This document shows positions 14,543 to 27,848 of a stretch of DNA of 35,902 nt, piece after piece. The DNA is from Candidatus Gastranaerophilales bacterium. Its GTDB lineage: Bacteria; Cyanobacteriota; Vampirovibrionia; Gastranaerophilales; UBA9579. How positions within the stretch are numbered: position 1 is the stretch's first letter; every line of letters starts with the position of its first letter. The notes under the pieces are model-generated. The model was not told the origin of the DNA. It saw nothing but the letters and a program-made list of their open reading frames with translations, and did not search any database. The stretch lies in contig JAQVCB010000016.1 of NCBI GenBank assembly GCA_028689995.1, forward strand, positions 1 through 35,902, in the 5' to 3' direction. A program made the translations under genes and the position numbers.

Positions 14543-14612
14543 TTGTGTCATGCTGAATTTATTTCAGCATCTCAGGGATTATAAGATCCTGAAACAAGTT
14601 CAGGATGACACG
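14543..14612. repeat. Double-hairpin repeat (GTGTCAT...ATGACAC), copy 1
   Basis: Outer arms GTGTCAT and ATGACAC enclose GCTGAA-TTTA-TTTCAGC and CCTGAAACAAGTTCAGG hairpins. Compared with the copies at 32083 and 33187 the GC/CC identities of the two hairpins are swapped. Confidence 0.75.
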
Positions 14613-14680
14613 AAATGATTTTTTTAAAATATATAAAAAATTTTCTTTGATTTTTGTTGTTTAGATTTAGAGGAAATAGG

Positions 14681-15310
14681 ATGATAAATGGACAGAAGAG
14701 CTTGTTTAATTTTTCTGAAACTGATCAAAATATAAGATTTAAGACTTTAAAAGAAGTTGAAGAAGTTTGCAAAACTTGTTATAAATGTGATCTTTCAAAT
14801 TCAAGAATCAAGGTTGTTTTCTCAGATGGAACACCAGAGGCTAAGTTAATGCTTATAGGTGAAGGGCCCGGTAAAAATGAGGATGAAACCGGATTACCAT
14901 TTGTCGGAAGAGCCGGAAAACTCCTTGATAAAATATTGTTATCTCAAAATATCACCAGAGAAAAAGAAATTTATATTTGTAATATTGTAAAATGCCGTCC
15001 ACCTCAAAATAGAGTTCCTGTTCCTTCTGAGAGGGAAGCTTGCAGAGTTTATCTTGAAGCTCAAATTCAGCTTATCAGACCAAAATTAATTCTCCTTGCC
15101 GGTGCAACTGCTGTTAAAGGAGTTTTAGGAAGAAAAGAACCTATTTCTAAAATCAGAGGTCAATGGTTTGATGGACCATTCGGATCTAAAATTATGCCAA
15201 TATTTCATCCTTCATATCTTCTTCGTTATGAATCAAATGAACCGGGCACTCCAAAGTACCTAATGTATCAAGATATTCAGGAAGTAAGAAGATCACTTGA
15301 TGCTTTATAA
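14681..15310 (+). CDS. Family 4 uracil-DNA glycosylase
   Basis: Removes uracil from DNA to start base-excision repair; family 4 enzymes carry a [4Fe-4S] cluster. From the ATG at 14681 the protein has 209 residues. Cluster cysteines lie in CKTCYKC (Cys33, Cys36), KCRPPQNR and SEREAC. The active-site motif is GEGPGKNEDETGLPFVGRAG, and HPSYLLR is the second catalytic/DNA-binding motif. I chose 14681 because AGGAAATAGG stands directly upstream; an in-frame TTG at 14654 would add nine residues but has no site. It complements dut in uracil control. It is monocistronic, with the giant coiled-coil gene starting about 200 bases later. Confidence 0.94.
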   Translation: MINGQKSLFNFSETDQNIRFKTLKEVEEVCKTCYKCDLSNSRIKVVFSDGTPEAKLMLIGEGPGKNEDETGLPFVGRAGKLLDKILLSQNITREKEIYICNIVKCRPPQNRVPVPSEREACRVYLEAQIQLIRPKLILLAGATAVKGVLGRKEPISKIRGQWFDGPFGSKIMPIFHPSYLLRYESNEPGTPKYLMYQDIQEVRRSLDAL

Positions 15311-15455: not shown

Positions 15456-15508
15456 ATACTATATATGGTTGGGAAAAAATTGAATAAAAAAATGGAGATA
15501 TAGCTTCT

Positions 15509-18500
15509 ATGAAGTATGATGAAAAGCTGGAAAGCCTTGAGGAGAAAGTATCAGCATCTGGTCAAAAGATTGAATATTTAGCCTCTTTAATGCAGAATAT
15601 TTCAAAATTAATCAAAAGAAATAATGTTGATATAGAGGGAAATACTACTAATAACCCTGTTCTGGATAGAATTGAAAATAAAATTGATGTTTTATCCAGA
15701 TCAAACTCAGTTGAATGTGTGGATTTATTTCTCATTGAATTAAAAAGAAATCTTGAAGAAAAGCAAAGACTCTTAAATTCAAAAGTAACTTCAATAGAAA
15801 CTCTTGCTGCCCAAATAACAAAAATAGTTGAAAAAAGTGATAATGAAAAATTAATTTCAGCTGATAACCATATTATAAACGATCTTGGTAGTCTTAAGGA
15901 AAATATTGATAATCTTTCTTCAAGTTTTAGCGGGATTCAAAGTGATCTGAATAATATTAACAGTAAGGTGGAATCAATTTCCAGTTCAGTTAAAGATGAA
16001 TCGGATGATTGCGTAAATTCTGTAATTAGTGAAATAAAGCCTCTGGCGGATAATTTCAACAGTAAATTTGACGAAAATACATCTTTCTTGAATGAAAAAT
16101 TCAAAGAAATAAATAATCTTGTTAAAAATTTAAATGATAATCAGTCTTTTGATCATCTAAAATCAGATATTAGTCTTGTTAATTCTAATGTAAGCGCTAT
16201 TTCAGCAGAATTATCAGAATTAAGCGGCGGATTAAAATATCTTAATGAGAAAATCGTTCAAATAGCCTCAAATGAAAGTATAAATTTACTTCAAAGTGGA
16301 ATAAATTCATTATCAGGCAGACTTAATGAACTGTTTGAGACGATAAAAGATATCTCTGAAACAGATAATACTGAAAAAATAACAGGTGAAATCAATCTTG
16401 TCTCGGAAAGATTTAATGAACTTAAAGATCATCTGTCTTCGGTTATAGAGAATAACAAAATTGAAATAAATGATAACAATAAAGATAAATTTGAAGATTT
16501 AAAAACAAATCTTCAAAATATAAACAAAAAATTAACATCTATCAGTTCAGAAGTTAACTTAGATAAGTACGAATCTGAATTTGGCGGATTAAAAGAGAGT
16601 GTTAATGAATTAAAAAATAAATTTGAAAAAATAGAAGAATTAATAGCTGATGCTGTTAATGTAGAGAAATTCGAAAACTTTATCAATTCAGGCATAGAAG
16701 GTTTGAATGGTCAGTTTATTGAACTGCAAAAATCAATAAACGGACTGGTAAAAGCCGGCAGCTTAAATGAAATACACGCCAGTATAAACAGTATAATCGG
16801 ACGCTTTGAAGGATTTGAATCATCAATAAATCAGCTAGATTCAACAGAAGACTTTAATGATTTAAAAAATAAAGTTGATGGATTAAAGGAAAAATTTAGT
16901 AATTTTGGAACAGATCTGGCTACCACAGAAGATATAGGCGGTTTAAACTCCGGTATCGAAGACATAAGAGAAGAATTTAATAAACTTGGCATATCATTAA
17001 ACAGCCTTGCTTCTTCAAATAGTATAAATTTACTTCAAAGTGGAATAAATTCATTATCAGGCAGACTTAATGAACTGTTTGAGTCGATAAAAGATATCTC
17101 TGAAACAGATAATACCGAAAAAATAACAACCGAAATCGGTCTTGTCTCAGAGAGATTTAATGAACTGAAAGATCATCTGTCTTCGGTTATAGAAAATAAC
17201 AAAATTGAAATAAATGATAACAACAAAGATAATTTTGAAGATTTAAAAACAAATCTTCAAAATATAGGCAAAAAATTAACATCTATAAGTTCAGAAGTTA
17301 ACATGGACAAGTACGAATCTGAATTTGGCGGATTAAAAGAGAGTGTTGATGGATTAAAGGAAAAATTTAGTAATTTTGGAACAGATCTGGCTACCACAGA
17401 AGATATAGGCGGTTTAAACTCCGGTATCGAAGACATAAGAGAAGAATTTAATAAACTCGGCATATCTTTAAACAGCCTTGCTTCTTCAAACAGTATAAAT
17501 TTACTTCAAAGTGGAATAAATTCATTATCAGGCAGACTTAATGAACTGTTTGAGTCGATAAAAGATATCTCTGAAACAGATAATACTGAAAAAATAACAG
17601 GTGAAATCAATCTTGTCTCGGAAAGATTCAATGAACTGAAAGATCATCTGTCTTCGGTTATAGAGAATAACAAAATTGAAATAAATGATAACAATAAAGA
17701 TAATTTTGAAGATTTAAAAACAAATCTTCAAAATATAGGCAAAAAATTAACATCTATAAGTTCAGAAGTTAACTTGGACAAGTACGAATCTGAATTTGGC
17801 GGATTAAAAGAAAGCGTTGATGGATTAAAAAACAAATTTGAAAATATAGAAGAATTAATAGCCAATGCTGTTAATGTAGAGAAATTTGAAAACTTTATCA
17901 ATTCAGGCATAGAAGGTTTGAATGGTCAGTTCATTGAGCTGCAAAAATCAATAAACGGACTGGCAAAAGCCGGCAGCTTAAATGAAATACACGCCAGTGT
18001 AAACAGTATAATCGGACGCTTTGAAGGATTTGAATCATCAATAAATCAGCTGGATTCAGCTGAAAACTTTAATGATTTAAAAAATAAAGTTGATGGATTA
18101 AAGGAAAAATTTAGTAATTTTGGAACAGATCTGGCTACCACAGAAGATATAGGCGGTTTAAACTCCGGTATCGAAGACATAAGAGAAGAATTTAATAAAC
18201 TCGGCATATCATTAAACACTCTTGCTTCATCAAATAGTATAAATTTACTTCAAAGTGGAATAAATTCATTATCAGGCAGACTTAATGAACTGTTTGAGTC
18301 GATAAAAGATATCTCTGAAACAGATAATACTGAAAAAATAACAGGTGAAATCAATCTTGTCTCGGAAAGATTTAATGAACTTAAAGATCATCTGTCTTCG
18401 GTTATAGAGAATAACAAAATTGAAATAAATGATAACAACAAAGATAATTTTGAAGATTTAAAAACAAATCTTCAAAATCTAGGCAAAAAGATAGCTAATA

Positions 18501-21500
18501 TAAATTCAGAAGTTAGTTCAAACAAATATGAATCTGAATTCAGTGAATTAAAAGATAAATTTGAAGATGTAAAAACATTATTAACCAGTACAATCAATAC
18601 AGATCATATTCAGGACTTTATCAGTTCAAGTATGGAAGGCGTAAACAACAAATTCATTGATATAGGAAAATCAATAGACGGATTAGCAACCGCCGACAGT
18701 TTGAATGAAATACAAATCGGAATAGGCAGTATAAATGATCGCTTTGCAGAATTTGAAACATCAATAAGTCAGCTGGATTCTACTGAAGAATTTAAAAATT
18801 TAAAAATTAAAATTGATGGATTAAGGGAAAAATTTAGTAATTTTGGAACAGATCTGGCTACCACAGAAGATATAGGCGGTTTAAACGCCAGTATCGAAGA
18901 CATAAGAGAAGAATTTAATAAACTCGGAATATCATTAAACAGCCTTGCTTCATCAAAAGACGTAAATATAATAAGAGCTGATTTTGAAAAAATCAATGAA
19001 AAATTTGATAATTTTGGAACAGATCTAGCTACTACAGATAATATTGAAATATTAAATGCAGGAATTGAAAATATAAAAGGACAATTTAAAAACCTTGAAT
19101 CAGTTATTGAACAAAATGCATCTTCAGAAGATTTGGAAGAAATAAAAGAACAAATTAGCAGTATAAATGAAAAGTTCATTAATCTTGGAACCTCAATAAA
19201 TAATCTTCCGTCAACCGGGGATATTAACTCGGTAAAATCTGGCATTAAAAATATAAATGAGCAATTTAAAGAACTTGAATCATCAATAAATCAACTGGAT
19301 TCTACGGAAAACTTTAATGATTTAAAAATCAAAATCGATGAATTAAATGAAAAATTTGATATTTTTGAAATTGCTCTAGCTAATACAGATAATATTGATG
19401 TATTAAATGCAGGAATTGAAAATATAAAAGGACAGTTTAAAAATCTTGAATCAGTCATTGAACAAAATTCATCCAAAGCGAACTTTGAAGAAGTAAAAGA
19501 ACAAATTAGCATCATAAATGAAAAATTCAATAATCTTGGAATATCAATAAATGGACTTCCGTCAACAGGCGACATTAACTCAGTAAAATCCGGAATAGAA
19601 GATATAAAAAATAAATTTAAGAATCTTGGTATTTCCGTTAATGATTTAGCATCAACTGAAAATATAAATGAAGTAAAATCAGTCATTGAAGGTGTTAATG
19701 AAAATATAAATAATAGATTCAATAATATTGGAGCATCTATAAATGAGTTTGCAGCAGCAGGAGATTTAAATGAAGTAAAATTCGGGATAAATAATATTAA
19801 AGATGAACTTATAGAAATTAGCAGTCTGGTATTTCAAAACAGCGATAATGGAAAGTTTGATGAATTAAGAAATGAGCTTTTATTTATCAAAGAAAAAATC
19901 TGTGAAGTAGATTCTTTAATATCAAGTGAAAATACAAAGGGAATTGAAGAACTTGCTACAGGTATAAATAATGTAAAAACCAGAATAATAGAATTAGGTA
20001 CATTAATAAAGAACCATTCTGCCGGAAATACAGAAGGAACCAGCAATGGAATAGATAATATCAAGGACAGACTTTATGAAATAGAACAGGTATTGGGTCA
20101 ATTAGTATCAATAAAAGAAATTGAAACTGTAAAAGAGCGGTTAACATGCTCAGTAACGAGAATGGAAGAACTGAAAGATAATATACAACAATCTTGGGAC
20201 AAATTAGACTTAATCAAGAAAAATGTAGAAAGACTTCCAGAAAAAGAAGATAATCTTGAAATTAAGAGTGGAATAACAAATCTTGGCATCAGCCTTTTAG
20301 ATATGAAAGGAGATTTAAACGGAATTAGTGCCAAGATAACTGAATTTTCCGAAATAATGTCGAACAACGATTCTAAAGACAGATGGATGGAATTATTAGG
20401 AGAAATAAAACCTTATTTAGAAAAATCGGATTTAAAATTTGAATCGAATATTTCATATATAAACGAGAAATTCGAAGATATAAACAAACTGATAGAAAAA
20501 CTTGATAATAAGGATGCAGTAAATCAGGTTAAATTAGATATAGATCTGGTAAAACTCAGTATAAATACTGTAGGGGACGAAGTATCAGGATTAAATAATA
20601 AAATAGCAGATATAAAAGAAAATCTGTTTGAAATAGCAACGAAAGAAAATATAAATACAGTTGGAAAAGAAATAAAAGCTGTATCGGATAAACTTTATGA
20701 CCTGTATGATGTTGTAAAGAATATATCCGGTTTAAATAATCTTGATGAAGTAAAAGAGAAGATAAATATAGCCGGGAATAATGTAGCTGAGCTGAAAAAT
20801 CATCTTAATTTATTATTTGACGATAAAATTAATTCCGTAATTGCTGAAAATACAGGATTATTAAAAGAAAATATTGTTAATTTTGAAGATAAATTAAATG
20901 ATATTAATCGATTAATTGAAAATAACGGCTCCAGTACAAGATTAGACGAGTTAAAGCAGGAATTATTATTAATACAAACAAATATTGGGGAATTTAGATC
21001 ATTTACTATTCAGAATAGTGAAGAAGAATTACGGAGTTTTAAACATTGTCTTGAAGGTGTCAAGGACAAGTTTAATGAGCTTGAAGGTTCATTTAAGAAG
21101 TTTGCAACTGTTGAAGATATTGGGATAATAAGAGACAATATTGAAGATTCGATATCCGGAATTTTAGAGCTTAAAAAGAATATAGATAGGTTAACAATTA
21201 TGGATTCAAAAATTACTTCAATCTATGACAAACTTGAAAATGTTTCATCAATTGAAAGCATTAACGCAATAGATAACAGCATATCTCGATTAACTGAAAA
21301 ATTTGATGTGCTGCTGGAGCTAATAAAAACAGCTGCTACAACACTTGATATCGAAGATATCAAAGAAGAAATCTATTCTTTCAAAGATGATTTTATTAAA
21401 CTTCATGGGAAAATAGAAAATTCTTTCGGGGAAAATACCGGCATAATAAAAGAAAATTTAGTTAGATTAGATGAAAAGCTAGGGGAATTAGGTTCATTAG

Positions 21501-24253
21501 TTGTTGATAATACAAATTTGTCTGAAGTACTCGAAAAATCAAGCCTTAAAACTGAGATAGAAATTATACATCAAGATATTACACAATTAAAATCAGGTTT
21601 GGGCGTTGATTATAACAGTATTAGAGAAAGTTTTGTTAAATTTGATGCAAAATTCAGAGAATTAGGTTCATTAGTAATTGATAATACAAATTTATCTGAT
21701 GTTCTTGAAAAATCAAGCCTTAAAATCGAGATAGAAAATGTACAGCAAGGAATTATGCAATTAAAATCAGGTTTGGGCGTTGATTATAACAGTATTAGAG
21801 AAAGTTTCCTTTCATTACAGAAAAGTCTTGAAGTTCTGAATGTTAACGAGAATATCGAGACTTTTAAAAATGATATTATAAAACTTGAAGAGTTTAACAA
21901 TAATCAGCTTACTCAGCTTCTTGAAAAAGGTTCTTTTGTTGAAAAAACCAAAGAAAAACTTGATATATTATTGGAACTAATAAAAACAGTCGCTACAACC
22001 CTTGATATCGAGGATATTAAAGAAGAAATTTATTCTTTTAAAGATGAATTTTCTGGACTTCATAGTAAAATAGATGATTCTTTTGACGAAAATATTAATT
22101 CCGTAAAAGAAAATCTGGTTAGATTTGATGAAAAATTAAATGAAATCGGATTATTAGTTGTGGAAAGTACAAATTTTTCAGAAGAACTTGAAAACTCAGG
22201 TGTTAAAACCCGAATAGAAAACGTCATCGAAGAAATTATTATTTTAAAGTCAAATTTTGCACAAGAAATAGAAGATTTGAATGTAAAACAGGATAATAAT
22301 TATGAAGGCATCAAGGATAGTATTGTTCTTTTGCAGGAAATGATTGAAGAACTTCATAAAAAAGCTCAGGATGAACCATTAGAAGATAAATATAATTCAA
22401 TTTTAGAAAGAATTAATTCTATATCAGATCTGTTTGAACAAAATGACAGACTTATTAAAATTGTTGAAGGTATGGATATTAACGAAAAAATTGATTCTGT
22501 CCAGCAATCTGCAGTAAATATAAATGATCTGATAGAAAGTAAAAGCACCGACTTTGAATTTGAATTTGAAACAATACAAGAAGATCTAACATCAATAAAA
22601 TCTCAATTTTCTGATTATACAGCCAAATATGAAGATATTAAAGGTGAAATTCAAAAAGGCTTTGAAGAAAATTCAATTAATAATTTAAAACCGGACATCG
22701 AGACATTACAAGAAGATCTAACATCAATAAAATCTCAATTCTCTGATTATACAGCCAAATATGAAGATATCAAAGGTGAAATTCAAAAGGGCTTTGAAGA
22801 AAATTCAATTAATAACTTAAAACCGGAAATCGAGACATTACAAGAAGACTTAACATCAATAAAATCTCAATTCTCTGATTATACAGCCAAATATGAAGAT
22901 ATCAAAGGTGAAATTCAAAAGGGTTTTGAAGATATAAGTGCTATGTCTGCCGCACTTTCTGAAGATTTGCCAGCTACTAATGATCAGATGAAAATTATAA
23001 GCAGTAATTTTAATAATTTAAAACTGGAATTTCAGAATATTGTAGACAAATTTGAAGATGTAAGTAGTAATATTTCTGATATTCATTCCAAAGCAAATAT
23101 GATGATATTAACATCAGATGATAATATTAATATTTTGAAAACAGCCATTGAGACTCCTGCTGAAGAAATAAAGGGTAAACTCGATGAAATAATTGAAAAT
23201 AATGCTGTTAGCCAGGAAAATATAAATAATTTAATTGTTAATTCAGCATCTTCATCAAGTGAATTTGTTAAAAAACAAGATGAAATTGCTGAGAATATCA
23301 GTAATCTCTCTGACAATGTAGCAAATTCATCAAATGAACTGATTAATAAACATGCTGAAATTGCTAAAAATGTTATTAATCTCTCTGATAATGTAGCAAA
23401 TTCATCTAGTGAACTGATTAGTAAACATAATGAAATTGCTAAAGATATCATAAATCTTTCTAATACATCTTCAGATACTTTAAATAGTACAGAAGCAGTT
23501 AGAGAAGCGTTGATTCAAATTGCAATATGGATAGACAATGCAGGAGAATTACTTGAAGAAACCAATAATAATGTTGAATATATCAAGCAAAATAAAGAAA
23601 CAGATAAAGTTTTTTCTGCACTGGAAAATATAAAAGATTTTATTGGCAAAACATTATCTGACAATGATGAAGAAACCAAAAAACAAATAAAAGCAATTTC
23701 TGAAAAATTGATTCATATAAACAGTATTATATTTGAGAATTCAAGAGATACTGAAATTGTTCAAAAAGTAGATCAGGTTGATAAAAATATTGAAAGTCTC
23801 GACATCAATATTTCAGGTATTTCACAGGAAATATCAAATATTTCAGGTTTGCTGTCAGGCTTTGAAAGTTTAATTAAAAAAGATACAAACGGATTAAATG
23901 ATAAGGCTGAAGATAATGATTTTTCCAAGCAGATTGAGAGCAATCTTGGTCGAGTAAAAAAAGACATAAATTCAGAGCTTAAGAAAATCAGCACTAAATT
24001 TAACAGCATTGAAACCAGACTTGAAAGTATTGATGAAAAGCTTGCTGCAATTGAATTAGGGAAGAGTTTAGAAGTAGGAAATGATGAAACGAAATCACTT
24101 CTTGAATTTATAGCAAGTCAGGTTGCGACATTAAATGAATCCGGTAAGAAAAACAATCTTTTAACCAAAAAAATGGAACAGATGGAAAAGAAAATATCCA
24201 GACTGGATGACAATTTAACAAAAATAGTCAGTGTTCTCGGCGAAGAAGGATAA
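15509..24253 (+). CDS. Giant 2914-residue coiled-coil repeat protein of unknown function
   Basis: Not recognised as any named family. One uninterrupted frame of 2914 codons encodes an acidic, Asn/Ser/Glu/Lys/Ile/Leu-rich protein with only three Trp, a handful of Cys and almost no Pro. There is no signal peptide or membrane segment, so it should be cytosolic. Nearly all of it follows a loose ~30-35-residue pattern (I..L...I..I...F..L...I..L) expected for long amphipathic helices and coiled coil. Near-identical 248-residue units start at residues 257, 505 (shortened to 157) and 662, with a fourth from 910 that diverges. Further repeats are 58, 44 and 25 residues. The N-terminus (MKYDEKLESLEEKV) and C-terminus (MEQMEKKISRLDDNL) are themselves heptad-like. 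GGAG lies 11 bases before the ATG. Plausible roles are scaffold, cytoskeletal filament or spacer; none is shown. Confidence 0.85.
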   Translation: MKYDEKLESLEEKVSASGQKIEYLASLMQNISKLIKRNNVDIEGNTTNNPVLDRIENKIDVLSRSNSVECVDLFLIELKRNLEEKQRLLNSKVTSIETLAAQITKIVEKSDNEKLISADNHIINDLGSLKENIDNLSSSFSGIQSDLNNINSKVESISSSVKDESDDCVNSVISEIKPLADNFNSKFDENTSFLNEKFKEINNLVKNLNDNQSFDHLKSDISLVNSNVSAISAELSELSGGLKYLNEKIVQIASNESINLLQSGINSLSGRLNELFETIKDISETDNTEKITGEINLVSERFNELKDHLSSVIENNKIEINDNNKDKFEDLKTNLQNINKKLTSISSEVNLDKYESEFGGLKESVNELKNKFEKIEELIADAVNVEKFENFINSGIEGLNGQFIELQKSINGLVKAGSLNEIHASINSIIGRFEGFESSINQLDSTEDFNDLKNKVDGLKEKFSNFGTDLATTEDIGGLNSGIEDIREEFNKLGISLNSLASSNSINLLQSGINSLSGRLNELFESIKDISETDNTEKITTEIGLVSERFNELKDHLSSVIENNKIEINDNNKDNFEDLKTNLQNIGKKLTSISSEVNMDKYESEFGGLKESVDGLKEKFSNFGTDLATTEDIGGLNSGIEDIREEFNKLGISLNSLASSNSINLLQSGINSLSGRLNELFESIKDISETDNTEKITGEINLVSERFNELKDHLSSVIENNKIEINDNNKDNFEDLKTNLQNIGKKLTSISSEVNLDKYESEFGGLKESVDGLKNKFENIEELIANAVNVEKFENFINSGIEGLNGQFIELQKSINGLAKAGSLNEIHASVNSIIGRFEGFESSINQLDSAENFNDLKNKVDGLKEKFSNFGTDLATTEDIGGLNSGIEDIREEFNKLGISLNTLASSNSINLLQSGINSLSGRLNELFESIKDISETDNTEKITGEINLVSERFNELKDHLSSVIENNKIEINDNNKDNFEDLKTNLQNLGKKIANINSEVSSNKYESEFSELKDKFEDVKTLLTSTINTDHIQDFISSSMEGVNNKFIDIGKSIDGLATADSLNEIQIGIGSINDRFAEFETSISQLDSTEEFKNLKIKIDGLREKFSNFGTDLATTEDIGGLNASIEDIREEFNKLGISLNSLASSKDVNIIRADFEKINEKFDNFGTDLATTDNIEILNAGIENIKGQFKNLESVIEQNASSEDLEEIKEQISSINEKFINLGTSINNLPSTGDINSVKSGIKNINEQFKELESSINQLDSTENFNDLKIKIDELNEKFDIFEIALANTDNIDVLNAGIENIKGQFKNLESVIEQNSSKANFEEVKEQISIINEKFNNLGISINGLPSTGDINSVKSGIEDIKNKFKNLGISVNDLASTENINEVKSVIEGVNENINNRFNNIGASINEFAAAGDLNEVKFGINNIKDELIEISSLVFQNSDNGKFDELRNELLFIKEKICEVDSLISSENTKGIEELATGINNVKTRIIELGTLIKNHSAGNTEGTSNGIDNIKDRLYEIEQVLGQLVSIKEIETVKERLTCSVTRMEELKDNIQQSWDKLDLIKKNVERLPEKEDNLEIKSGITNLGISLLDMKGDLNGISAKITEFSEIMSNNDSKDRWMELLGEIKPYLEKSDLKFESNISYINEKFEDINKLIEKLDNKDAVNQVKLDIDLVKLSINTVGDEVSGLNNKIADIKENLFEIATKENINTVGKEIKAVSDKLYDLYDVVKNISGLNNLDEVKEKINIAGNNVAELKNHLNLLFDDKINSVIAENTGLLKENIVNFEDKLNDINRLIENNGSSTRLDELKQELLLIQTNIGEFRSFTIQNSEEELRSFKHCLEGVKDKFNELEGSFKKFATVEDIGIIRDNIEDSISGILELKKNIDRLTIMDSKITSIYDKLENVSSIESINAIDNSISRLTEKFDVLLELIKTAATTLDIEDIKEEIYSFKDDFIKLHGKIENSFGENTGIIKENLVRLDEKLGELGSLVVDNTNLSEVLEKSSLKTEIEIIHQDITQLKSGLGVDYNSIRESFVKFDAKFRELGSLVIDNTNLSDVLEKSSLKIEIENVQQGIMQLKSGLGVDYNSIRESFLSLQKSLEVLNVNENIETFKNDIIKLEEFNNNQLTQLLEKGSFVEKTKEKLDILLELIKTVATTLDIEDIKEEIYSFKDEFSGLHSKIDDSFDENINSVKENLVRFDEKLNEIGLLVVESTNFSEELENSGVKTRIENVIEEIIILKSNFAQEIEDLNVKQDNNYEGIKDSIVLLQEMIEELHKKAQDEPLEDKYNSILERINSISDLFEQNDRLIKIVEGMDINEKIDSVQQSAVNINDLIESKSTDFEFEFETIQEDLTSIKSQFSDYTAKYEDIKGEIQKGFEENSINNLKPDIETLQEDLTSIKSQFSDYTAKYEDIKGEIQKGFEENSINNLKPEIETLQEDLTSIKSQFSDYTAKYEDIKGEIQKGFEDISAMSAALSEDLPATNDQMKIISSNFNNLKLEFQNIVDKFEDVSSNISDIHSKANMMILTSDDNINILKTAIETPAEEIKGKLDEIIENNAVSQENINNLIVNSASSSSEFVKKQDEIAENISNLSDNVANSSNELINKHAEIAKNVINLSDNVANSSSELISKHNEIAKDIINLSNTSSDTLNSTEAVREALIQIAIWIDNAGELLEETNNNVEYIKQNKETDKVFSALENIKDFIGKTLSDNDEETKKQIKAISEKLIHINSIIFENSRDTEIVQKVDQVDKNIESLDINISGISQEISNISGLLSGFESLIKKDTNGLNDKAEDNDFSKQIESNLGRVKKDINSELKKISTKFNSIETRLESIDEKLAAIELGKSLEVGNDETKSLLEFIASQVATLNESGKKNNLLTKKMEQMEKKISRLDDNLTKIVSVLGEEG
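16277..18480 (+). repeat. Near-identical 744-bp in-gene tandem units
   Basis: Units begin with AGTATAAATTTACTTCAAAG at 16277, 17021, 17492 and 18236. Spacings are 744, 471 and 744 bases, all in frame. The 471-base unit lacks an internal 273-base segment. DNA identity is very high including silent sites, so duplication or gene conversion is recent. Unit 4 keeps identity to about 18480. Confidence 0.92.
21485..21809 (+). repeat. 58-residue in-gene repeat, two copies
   Basis: GAATTAGGTTCATTAGT starts at 21485 and again at 21659 (174 bases, 58 codons). Each copy ends with LKSGLGVDYNSIRESF. The flanking LLELIKT.ATTLDIEDIKEE block recurs at about 21310 and 21960. Confidence 0.85.
22577..22930 (+). 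repeat. 44-residue in-gene tandem repeat, nearly three copies
   Basis: CAAGAAGA(T/C) starts at 22577, 22709 and 22841, an exact 132-base period. The encoded unit is QEDLTSIKSQFSDYTAKYED plus IKGEIQKGFEENSINNLKP; the third copy breaks after QKGFED. Copies are nearly identical at DNA level. Confidence 0.92.
23228..23452 (+). repeat. 25-residue in-gene tandem repeat, three copies
   Basis: Starts at 23228, 23303 and 23378 (75-base period). The consensus is NLSDNVANSSSELI.KH.EIAK.I; the first copy is more diverged. Confidence 0.85.
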
Positions 24254-24388: not shown

Positions 24389-25381
24389 TTGAATCAAAAT
24401 CTCCTGAAATTATACTTTAATAGTGATGGCATGCAGCAGAATCAAGGTAATAATGGCATGCCTGATTCTGCTATAACTAAAAACCAATCTGTAGAACATT
24501 CTACTCCTTCGATTAACCCTAAGTTAAATCAGGATTTATCGCAGGTTAAAGATATTTTTGAATCTTTCAGACCAAAAGTTAATAAACTTACAAATAAGAT
24601 AAATAATTATGATACATTTATAAAACAAAATAGGGACAATCAGGCAATAAAGGAATCACATCCTGTTTTGGAAGGGGTTATAAGTACTATCCCCAATGCA
24701 AGAAGGATAATTAATGTTGAAAATAATGTAGAGAATAATAATCCGACAAAAGCTGTCGGGCTTGGTTTACTGGCAATTATTACCTTAAAAGAGGACTTAA
24801 GAGATTTATTGTCTATATTTGGACTTTCAAAATCCGAAGCACCTGAAGGATATTTCTCAAAATTCAAATTCTTTGCCGGAACACCTATTGAAAGCTGGCT
24901 TTTAAACAGAAAATGGGGGAAAAATATTCTTAATAGCTGGGATACTACTTTAGCAGATGCAAAATTGGGAAATAAAGTTTATTCATTCTTTAAAATAGAA
25001 GAAAATAGCCAATTTTATAATAAAGAAACAAGAATTCCTTTTCTAAGAAAGGATACAGTTACCAGAGAATATCTTAAATTTGAAGGTTCGTTTATTGGAA
25101 AGTTATCTTGTTTGGCATTAAACAGAATTACTAAAATAGGCTTAATTTTTATGTCTCTTTTAGAAGTACCAACAATATATAAAGCCATTAAAAATAACAA
25201 AGATTACTCTCAAATTCCTGAATCAGCAGTAAATGTAATATCCTGCACTTTTTGTGGAGCTTTATTCAGTGCATTATTATCTTTAATAACAGGCATTCCG
25301 GCTGGTTCAGTTATAGGATTGGGATTAGGTTTATTTATTGGCAATAAACTTTCAAAGCTTATTTTTAAAAATAAACAATAA
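24389..25381 (+). CDS. Putative membrane protein with glycine-rich C-terminal hairpin
   Basis: Not recognised. The 330-residue product has a polar, Gln/Asn-rich N-terminus (1-60) and a helical region with RPKVNKLTNKINNYDTFI. A weakly hydrophobic stretch follows (KAVGLGLLAIITLKED, about 125), then a soluble middle. The C-terminal third is strongly hydrophobic: LALNRITKIGLIFMSLLEV, then VISCTFCGALFSALLSLITG and GSVIGLGLGLFIGNKL, the last a glycine-zipper-like pair of helices. The start is taken as TTG 24389, with AGGAAAGGAAG immediately upstream; an ATG at 24369 is in another frame and ends after seven codons. It lies 135 bases after the giant coiled-coil gene in the same direction and may be co-transcribed. 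Its stop abuts the convergent small gene. Confidence 0.7.
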   Translation: MNQNLLKLYFNSDGMQQNQGNNGMPDSAITKNQSVEHSTPSINPKLNQDLSQVKDIFESFRPKVNKLTNKINNYDTFIKQNRDNQAIKESHPVLEGVISTIPNARRIINVENNVENNNPTKAVGLGLLAIITLKEDLRDLLSIFGLSKSEAPEGYFSKFKFFAGTPIESWLLNRKWGKNILNSWDTTLADAKLGNKVYSFFKIEENSQFYNKETRIPFLRKDTVTREYLKFEGSFIGKLSCLALNRITKIGLIFMSLLEVPTIYKAIKNNKDYSQIPESAVNVISCTFCGALFSALLSLITGIPAGSVIGLGLGLFIGNKLSKLIFKNKQ

Positions 25382-25603: not shown

Positions 25604-25673
25604 TTTTCCGATTCTCTTTTCTTAATTTCTGTTAATGGTCAAATTGTGACTGATAAAAATAAAAAGACTGACT

Positions 25674-25775
25674 TGTCATCCGAGTAAAGTCGAAGGATCT
25701 TACCAATTAAGTCTGTAATTAATAAGCGAAAATTGGTAAGATTGCCACGGATTTCTTCGAAATCCTCGCAATGAC
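25674..25775. repeat. ~105-bp composite palindromic repeat, copy 2
   Basis: Runs from TGTCATCCGAGTAAAGTCGA to CCTCGCAATGAC and matches the reverse complement of 12315-12421 across its full length with small indels. The right part is a hairpin, GGATTTC-TTC-GAAATCC. Confidence 0.8.
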
Positions 25776-25975
25776 TAATGTGTACGAAATAATGGGATTC
25801 TGAATTTTAAATTATTTATCAGTTCGTATCTGTCCATAACCTAATTTCTCTCTTAATTATATAAAATCTATAAAAATAATAATTGCTAAATTTCCTAAAA
25901 TTTTTCTATTGAAAATTTTAGAGGATAAAATTATCAAATTAATATTTCTAAAAATCCTTACTCTATAATGTTTGT

Positions 25976-26067: not shown

Positions 26068-26658
26068 GACAATGTATACATTCATTTTATAAATGATGCT
26101 GCAAAGAGATTTAAAAAAGATAAAACAAGAACTATTCTATACGTTGATGAATTAACAAGAGTAGTTGATAAAACATCCAACATTAAAAGAGAATTTGAAG
26201 ACTTTGTAAAAACCTGTTCTGAAAAATATCACTGTACTGTTTTTGGAGCAACAAATCATATGTCTAAAATAGGTATAGATCTCAAAAATCCTGATATTTT
26301 CCCTGTTAGAATTTCTCTCGATCCTCCAAACAAAGAAGATACAAAAAGCATACTTATGCATTATCTAAAAGGAAGAACAACGGGAGAGGTAAATTATGAC
26401 CTTATAACTGATAAACTTATGGAAACAGGAAAATCAAGAGGAGGTATTTACAGTAATTCTCAAATTGAAGATATTTGTGTACGTAGCCAGAAAGAAGGTA
26501 AAAGCGGGATATCACAAAATGATATTTTGGAATATATACAGGAAGAAATGAAGAAATCAATACCATATGGGATGACCAGAGAAATCAATAAGGGCCCTGC
26601 AATTATCTGGAAAAAAATTGAAAGTTTTAATGAGGATATAAAAAAATATATGACTTGA
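26068..26658 (+). pseudogene. 5'-truncated AAA+ ATPase remnant
   Basis: The frame opens right after TAG at 26065-26067 and runs 196 codons with clear AAA+ ATPase features: the Walker B strand RTILYVDELTRVV, sensor-1 TVFGATNHMSKI, and a C-terminal lid with DILEYIQEEMKKS. The Walker A half and any ATG before residue 65 are missing, and the upstream DNA is non-coding AT-rich spacer, so the gene has lost its 5' part. An internal ATG at 26260 with no good ribosome binding site would give 132 residues lacking Walker B. The neighbour at 26727 looks like a diverged relative. It is probably a decaying paralogue left by duplication or deletion. Confidence 0.7.
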
Positions 26659-26726: not shown

Positions 26727-27848
26727 ATGAAAATTGTAAATAATCTGCTTCAATTAAATAATAGTACAATTGTTAAAAATAATTCACAAAATATATCGTT
26801 TACCGGCAATCCTAATAACGGTTCTGGTGAAGACATGTTTGTATATACGGCAAGTGATGCTGATTTAGACAAAAGACTTGAATCTAACAAAAAATTGTTA
26901 AAATTATATTATGACGCTTTGGAAAGTTTTCCTTATCATGTGAAAGAAGAACAAATCGGAACAAGAGTAAAAATACCTAACTGCATTATGGTATTAGGCA
27001 ATAATTCTAAAATCACAGGCGGTGTGATTGAATGGATGAAAAATTATTCTGGTGACAGTAATATTGTTAATTTAGCCAATGAAGATAAAGATGTTTTGCA
27101 AGATGACCTGTGGGATGTTTTCAATAAATCAAAAGAAGAATTTCTAAAAACAAAAAAAAGGACATTAATACATGTAGAAGGATTTGACAGGTTAATAAAT
27201 CCAGAAATTAATGAATTCAAAAATATTGAGTGGCTGAAAGATTTAATGAACCGCTGCGCAAGTGATTTTGGTGTAACAATTGTATTTGACACAAAAGATG
27301 CTTCAAAATTGACTGAAGAAGCTATTCAGCCTCATAGAATCGGTGAAATATTAAAGACAGGTGATGTATTGCCGTCCGAGTTTCTTGAATATGATAGATC
27401 AGTGAATAATAAAGCCAGAATTGAAAATTATTTTAAAATGAATCAGGAATTATACCCTGAAACCAGTAAACCTGAAATTCCAAAACCACAGGAAGAAATA
27501 CAAGTCAAAAGTAGAACGACAAAATCTCAAGAACCAAAAGAACAAGTAAAAATTGAAGATGAAAAAATAAAAATAGAACCCGAAGCTCAGACAAAAGTAG
27601 ATACGCCTGAAATTAAAGTAGAAAAAGAAGTAAAAACTGAAAATTTAGATCAGGGAATCAAAAAAGCTTCAAAAGGTGCAAAAGTATTTAAATGGGTAGC
27701 AATCCTGGCTGCAATTGGAGGCATCATTGCCGGAGTAAGGCATTTAATTTCAAAAGACAAAAGTAAAAGCGGACAGCCATTAATCAACAACAATGAGCTG
27801 CAACCCACTACTACTAATACTATATTAAATAATAAGATGCTGAAATAA
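26727..27848 (+). CDS. Membrane-anchored degenerate AAA+-like protein with ISFTG motif
   Basis: Not a named family. The 373-residue protein has a polar lead and NISFTGNPNNG at residues 23-33. The segment about 85-230 follows the AAA+ strand order but with ruined catalytic motifs: IMVLGNNSKITGGVI where Walker A should be (no GKT/S), RTLIHVEGFDRL where Walker B should read DE, and TIVFDTKDASKL at sensor 1. A Pro/Glu/Lys-rich linker (about 245-310) leads to one hydrophobic helix VFKWVAILAAIGGIIAGV (about 322-340) and a polar tail. It is thus likely a non-hydrolysing pseudo-ATPase with a C-terminal membrane anchor. AAAGG lies nine bases before the ATG. The truncated AAA+ remnant is directly upstream. 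Confidence 0.7.
   Translation: MKIVNNLLQLNNSTIVKNNSQNISFTGNPNNGSGEDMFVYTASDADLDKRLESNKKLLKLYYDALESFPYHVKEEQIGTRVKIPNCIMVLGNNSKITGGVIEWMKNYSGDSNIVNLANEDKDVLQDDLWDVFNKSKEEFLKTKKRTLIHVEGFDRLINPEINEFKNIEWLKDLMNRCASDFGVTIVFDTKDASKLTEEAIQPHRIGEILKTGDVLPSEFLEYDRSVNNKARIENYFKMNQELYPETSKPEIPKPQEEIQVKSRTTKSQEPKEQVKIEDEKIKIEPEAQTKVDTPEIKVEKEVKTENLDQGIKKASKGAKVFKWVAILAAIGGIIAGVRHLISKDKSKSGQPLINNNELQPTTTNTILNNKMLK

Follow-up and report, generated by a model that had tools for sequence, protein, structure and literature searches.

A giant segmented coiled-coil protein with conserved ends forms a family specific to the Gastranaerophilales

We found that a single gene of the window (the whole stretch of 35,902 nucleotides analyzed here, which spans contig C133 from end to end; the draft genome is 89% complete with 6% contamination) encodes the longest listed member of a giant coiled-coil protein family. 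The family is well supported as real and order-specific; it is new to the libraries searched and its general kind, the bacterial coiled-coil-rich structural proteins, is known. Its members have conserved ends and a middle that varies in both sequence and length. A very large and near-universal protein that marks the Gastranaerophilales offers an entry point to the little-known cell biology of these nonphotosynthetic cyanobacterial relatives.

Results

The giant gene (15509-24253, + strand) starts with ATG, contains zero internal stops and forms one intact frame of 2914 aa (326 kDa, pI 4.5), as the initial annotation had reported for this 8.7-kb stretch. A GGAG string resembling a ribosome-binding site was read from the sequence at 15494-15497 (+), 11 nt 5' of the ATG. 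The protein is rich in E, I, N, S, L and K and contains 3 Trp, 5 Cys and 11 Pro. No transmembrane segment or signal peptide core was detected, the highest 19-residue Kyte-Doolittle mean being 0.84, which indicates that the protein is soluble. Pfam searches and a Walker A check revealed no enzyme domain, and the sole P-loop-like string, AAIELGKS, sits within the coiled coil and appears to be a chance occurrence. The earlier description of a cytosolic-looking protein lacking a signal peptide, membrane segment and enzymatic motif agrees with these results.

Heptad periodicity was assessed with a register model, in which the giant protein scored +4.2 per 100 aa compared with -18.2 for shuffled sequence. 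PNPase, UvrD, GcpE and an M16 protein encoded in the same window served as controls and scored close to their own shuffles. Hydrophobic residues occupied 85% of the assigned core positions of the giant protein and 14% of the other positions. The coiled-coil character proposed initially is thereby confirmed. AlphaFold2 models of the N-terminal 150 aa and the C-terminal 316 aa were nearly all helix (pLDDT 76.9 and 80.5, respectively), with low pTM values (0.27 for the C-terminal model and 0.38) that are expected for long helices and uninformative on assembly; helicity of the central part rests on the register analysis. The best register path contained 85 breaks, about one per 34 residues, of which 47 were +2 and seven were +6 shifts, compared with 56 breaks (15 and 15) in one shuffled copy. 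These results show that the giant protein consists of short coiled-coil segments, heptad-periodic almost throughout, and contains no single uninterrupted helix. The initial annotation had envisaged one continuous stretched helix; the helical nature of both modeled ends stands, but the continuity does not. Its estimate of a rod of hundreds of nanometers is compatible with a fully extended length of ~430 nm, which is an upper bound rather than a result. Ile and Val are plentiful at both the a and d core positions of the protein. By established coiled-coil rules, Ile and Val at both positions disfavor dimers, and this composition, together with the β-layer-like motifs described below, favors a trimer.

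Many of the register breaks carry a candidate β-layer motif close to the consensus of trimeric α/β coiled coils. Insertions of two or six residues into heptads are the criterion for that class, and its β-layer consensus is [aliphatic]-A-T-K-[polar]-[DE] (PMC4786415). The insertion feature is present in the giant protein at the +2 and +6 breaks counted above, and close variants of the consensus include LATTEDI, LASTENI, FATVEDI and IATKENI. A loosened form of the motif matched 19 times compared with 1.5 times in shuffles, many of the 19 matches being copies of one another that arose by duplication. The register shift at these sites was +2 at 11 and +6 at six (17 of 19 together). Outside the motif, too, +2 was the most frequent shift, and the +2 class is inflated by duplication. 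The main run of candidate β-layer breaks spans residues 443-1386 (16835-19667, +) and includes LDSTEDF, LATTEDI, LASSKDV, LPSTGDI and LASTENI. Where the run is dense it forms units of 27-30 residues, each with a core spacing of 3-4-3-4 and one six-residue gap at the motif L-A-[ST]-[ST]-x-[DEN]-I. Similar sites (LPVKDDI, LSVKDDV and FAVKEDI) occur in L021, a member of family f3. Among the register breaks of most f2 members +1 skips predominate, indicating that β-layers are not a family-wide trait; at best they characterize the middle in some lineages. The protein is a candidate case of β-layer coiled coils in a cytosolic protein.

Three conserved elements were located near the ends. The conserved N-terminal region (approximately residues 1-130; 15509-15898, +) has the core RIE.KIDVL...ELK..LEEK and is mostly helix in the AlphaFold2 model. 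A Trp motif, LIQIAIWIDNAG, lies at residues 2668-2679 (23510-23545, +) with the Trp at position 2674, which is preceded by Ile in place of the usual Glu. The conserved C-terminal block, LLEFIASQV..NESGK...KKMEQMEKKI..LDDNLTKIVSVL (23891-24250, +), is helical in the AlphaFold2 model. Each of the 43 members read at the C-terminus contained the Trp motif, at a distance of 46-366 residues from the last residue, with the consensus [LMI]-[AG]-E-W-[IVMF]-[DE] and few exceptions; because the motif was picked by scoring Trp contexts, percentages at the flanking positions are slightly favored by the choice. The C-terminal 130 aa were better conserved than the middle in nine of 11 between-species pairs. 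For the pair L061/L062, identity was 0.60-0.67 at the ends compared with 0.23-0.55 between them, falling to 0.23-0.37 in the center.

The middle of the giant protein has been lengthened by recent internal duplications that are under purifying selection. Four 300-nt copies (starts at 16277, 17021, 17492 and 18236; 16277-18535, +) share 91-97% nucleotide identity and are spaced by 744, 471 and 744 nt. Three tandem repeats follow: two copies of a 174-nt unit (84%; 21446-21793, +), three copies of a 132-nt unit (75-95%; 22568-22963, +) and 2.8 copies of a 75-nt unit (23251-23461, +), all copy numbers being those of a metagenome contig and possibly off. Pairwise dN/dS between the 300-nt copies was about 0.1-0.4 and every copy is in frame, indicating that the repeats are real coding sequence. 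In the L061/L062 pair, dN/dS was <1 in every window along the protein. The initial suggestion that the gene is maintained by selection is supported by both comparisons.

No relatives emerged when genome contigs were scanned with the complete protein, but a profile of the C-terminal block did recover them. With this profile (A3), the family was detected in 169 of 192 Gastranaerophilales genomes, usually at one locus per genome. In a second, class-level sample, a deeper profile (A4) matched 52 of 52 Gastranaerophilales genomes, including that of the window, with no genome of the order among the misses listed, which appear ordered by kinship. Only two of 94 genomes from other orders of the class matched A4, both in ORFs of 129-140 aa. 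Phylum-level matches outside the order were rejected as generic coil; they were ORFs of 114-153 aa that aligned only to profile positions 65-170, a range that excludes the part containing the Trp motif. Among the 148 matches listed, frames ranged from 332 to 2921 aa with a median of ~1690, the shortest probably being cut by contig ends, and the window protein was the longest family member among them. Protein length within the family differs more than fourfold (about 640-2914 aa); the same-family relative L017, for example, has 1174 aa. The Melainabacteria-type host suggested at the outset is in keeping with the named relatives, which are Candidatus Gastranaerophilales. The protein, whose first description could be read as that of an isolated oddity, is instead part of an order-wide family.

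No curated family in Pfam, NCBIfam or PHROG describes the giant protein, the matches being generic coil, and a sequence search of PDB with the whole protein found no relative; the initial view that it has no described family over its full length is upheld. Several short Pfam coil models (DUF2730, Occludin_ELL, DUF1664, PilJ and EF-hand_14) scored above their cut-offs over ~55-90 aa, as did the short NCBIfam model BcepMu_gp16. None of the five Pfam models matched the 2283-aa relative L061, and they were rejected as a property of the family. Crescentin (PF19220) was likewise rejected, with 21.8 bits against a cut-off of 100 for the C-terminal 273 aa and no whole-protein match. In PDB the family profile matched mainly generic coils, of which many were trimeric, and Foldseek with the N-terminal AlphaFold2 model returned nothing at E<=0.001. 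Among the titles listed from the open-access literature on Gastranaerophilales and Melainabacteria, we found no description of this protein.

The gene directly upstream of the giant gene encodes a protein of the uracil-DNA glycosylase (UDG) superfamily (14654-15310, +). It is a conserved neighbor for which no functional link is claimed; the UDG gene upstream of the L017 giant gene is 78% identical to it. UDG genes lie upstream in families f1 and f7, in part of f4 and in some of f2, and are the widest-spread neighbors. At most f2 loci (L049, L052, L056, L057, L079-L088, L090, L091, L097 and L098), the giant gene overlaps the start of a gene for an FAD-linked, glycolate-oxidase-like oxidase by 10-34 nt, which suggests translational coupling, and in these loci it is in most cases oriented divergently to a 2-oxoacid:ferredoxin oxidoreductase operon. 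Since neighbors are kept within families and differ between them, gene context does not identify a partner.

Discussion

We lean toward the view that the giant protein is a cytosolic, probably homotrimeric, segmented rod that has docking sites at both ends and acts as a scaffold or tether. Parallel homotrimers are the probable form in which the chains would associate via their heptad segments; the resulting long rod would be jointed at the register breaks, many of which are β-layer-like hexads and nonads. In-frame duplication and deletion would lengthen or shorten the middle. The working ends would be the N-terminal region on one side and, on the other, the C-terminal block together with the invariant Trp motif. 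They may dock two cellular partners, which would make the protein a tether, or link successive rods into a filament. A tether or scaffold would be expected to bind through its ends and to gain reach from its middle, and the family has conserved ends flanking a coiled middle that varies freely; this makes the role proposed in the initial annotation plausible. Since length is not conserved, a fixed ruler is unlikely, and the variation fits better with a tether that is flexible or a unit from which filaments are built. In this family nature has in effect run an experiment on the extent to which a coiled-coil rod may change in length when its two ends remain constant.

A more specific version of this proposal is that the family forms an order-specific cytoskeletal or tethering system, in which a cytosolic trimeric rod of up to ~0.4 μm, with β-layer joints in some lineages and a length tuned by repeats, binds fixed partners through conserved ends that include the Trp docking motif. 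We regard this version as possible but doubtful.

Several known systems resemble the segmented rod in part. The intermediate filament-like coiled-coil-rich proteins (CCRPs), such as crescentin, FilP, Helicobacter pylori Ccrp and cyanobacterial Fm7001, are, like the giant protein, apparently cytosolic, nearly all coil and devoid of a nucleotide-binding domain. Crescentin and FilP are much shorter than the giant protein. The giant family also differs from CCRPs of the crescentin/FilP type in its variable length, its Trp motif and the lack of a sequence relation, and filament formation is only a candidate property of it. By the criterion of at least 80 coil residues (PMC7002697), the giant protein counts as a CCRP. 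Golgins are eukaryotic tethers with a long coil and functional ends, and giantin reaches ~0.5 μm (PMC5082667). Golgins and giantin combine a very long coil, short breaks and functional ends, as proposed here for the giant protein, and no homology is claimed; the coil of giantin keeps its length and is anchored in a membrane, whereas the giant family varies more than fourfold in length and has no transmembrane segment. With Tcar0761/DUF3782, DUF1640 and the stalks of trimeric autotransporters (PMC4786415), the giant protein shares breaks of the hexad/nonad type, and its candidate motif is close to theirs. Unlike in those α/β coiled coils, its breaks are ~3-4 heptads apart rather than consecutive, and it has neither a Pfam match to the DUF3782, DUF1640 or stalk families nor any export or membrane parts. 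SpiroCoCo (NCBIfam NF047514/NF047515) is likewise a lineage-named coiled-coil family; its similarity to the giant family consists of coil below the cut-off in the relatives L044 and L054 and is absent from the window protein.

Coiled-coil hubs are known in bacteria in general, and the giant protein might be a regulatory or polar-organizer hub that recruits clients along its length and uses its ends for oligomerization only. A variable middle could hold species-specific client sites, but the middle is poorly conserved even between close species, with identity down to 0.23-0.47, and we consider a hub unlikely.

An SMC/Rad50-like coil or another chromosome-associated organizer of the nucleoid appears similarly improbable. 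The NCBIfam models for SMC, Rad50 and ASRP gave the top coil scores and the DNA-repair (UDG) gene recurs upstream; however, the best scores were far under the curated cut-offs (204.7 compared with 300 bits for ASRP and 121.6 compared with 729 for SMC) and covered the coil only. Membership was rejected on these scores. In addition, Pfam detected no AAA/SMC head domain and no ATPase head was found, the pI is acidic, and most f2 loci lack the UDG linkage.

We also weighed an accessory role in Mla/MCE lipid transport, in which the protein would be a cytoplasmic scaffold for MlaF-MlaD. At eight f4 loci (L044-L048, L050, L054 and L055), the giant gene lies 3-18 nt 5' of a gene for an Mla-type ABC ATPase, which is followed by MlaD, and a gene for the MlaE permease is ~1.2 kb away in L064 and L065. 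The permease gene in these two closely related loci is on the opposite strand, though, and in the genome of the window mlaE, mlaF and mlaD are together on a separate contig, where mlaE takes the position ahead of mlaF that the giant gene has at the f4 loci. As most f2 genomes have the FAD-linked oxidase gene downstream and other genomes have neither, such a role seems rather remote.

A surface or secreted fiber, of either the trimeric autotransporter or the S-layer type, is still harder to reconcile with the protein. Stalks of this kind typically carry β-layer motifs and are trimeric, as the giant protein probably is (PMC4786415), and the PDB matches of the family profile included trimeric stalks and fusion proteins. 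The window protein, however, has no signal peptide, transmembrane or barrel anchor, SLH domain or YadA domain, and no transmembrane-like stretch exceeded the cut-off in any family member read, making a surface location very improbable.

We dismiss a phage tail tape-measure protein or prophage remnant, as weak PHROG tape-measure matches over the coil are outweighed by the absence of relatives in the viral contigs scanned, the lack of a hydrophobic segment and a chromosomal position amid housekeeping genes across an order.

Other features of the window

Directly 3' of the giant gene is a gene (24389-25381, +) for a protein of 330 aa that belongs to no known family; its N-terminus looks low in complexity and its C-terminus is hydrophobic and rich in glycine. 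The downstream gene in the syntenic L017 is a different one. Further downstream, the fragment at 26080-26658 (+) looks like the latter half of an ATPase domain of the AAA type, with no Walker A seen and no 5' start. Its neighbor is a 373-aa protein that looks intact and has an AAA-like middle. A related frame occurs on contig C132, and the fragment is possibly a 5'-truncated pseudogene. A short motif around SF.G/AFG (NISFTGNP, for example) begins several unrelated predicted proteins of the order, encoded at 26727-27848 and in L047, L048, L055 and L064, and may be a signal for sorting or attachment that recurs among them. The intergenic stretches at ~14550-14620 and 25660-25790 contain imperfect-palindrome-like sequences (tgtcat...atgacac; ttcttcgaaatcctcgcaatgac) that resemble REP-type elements.
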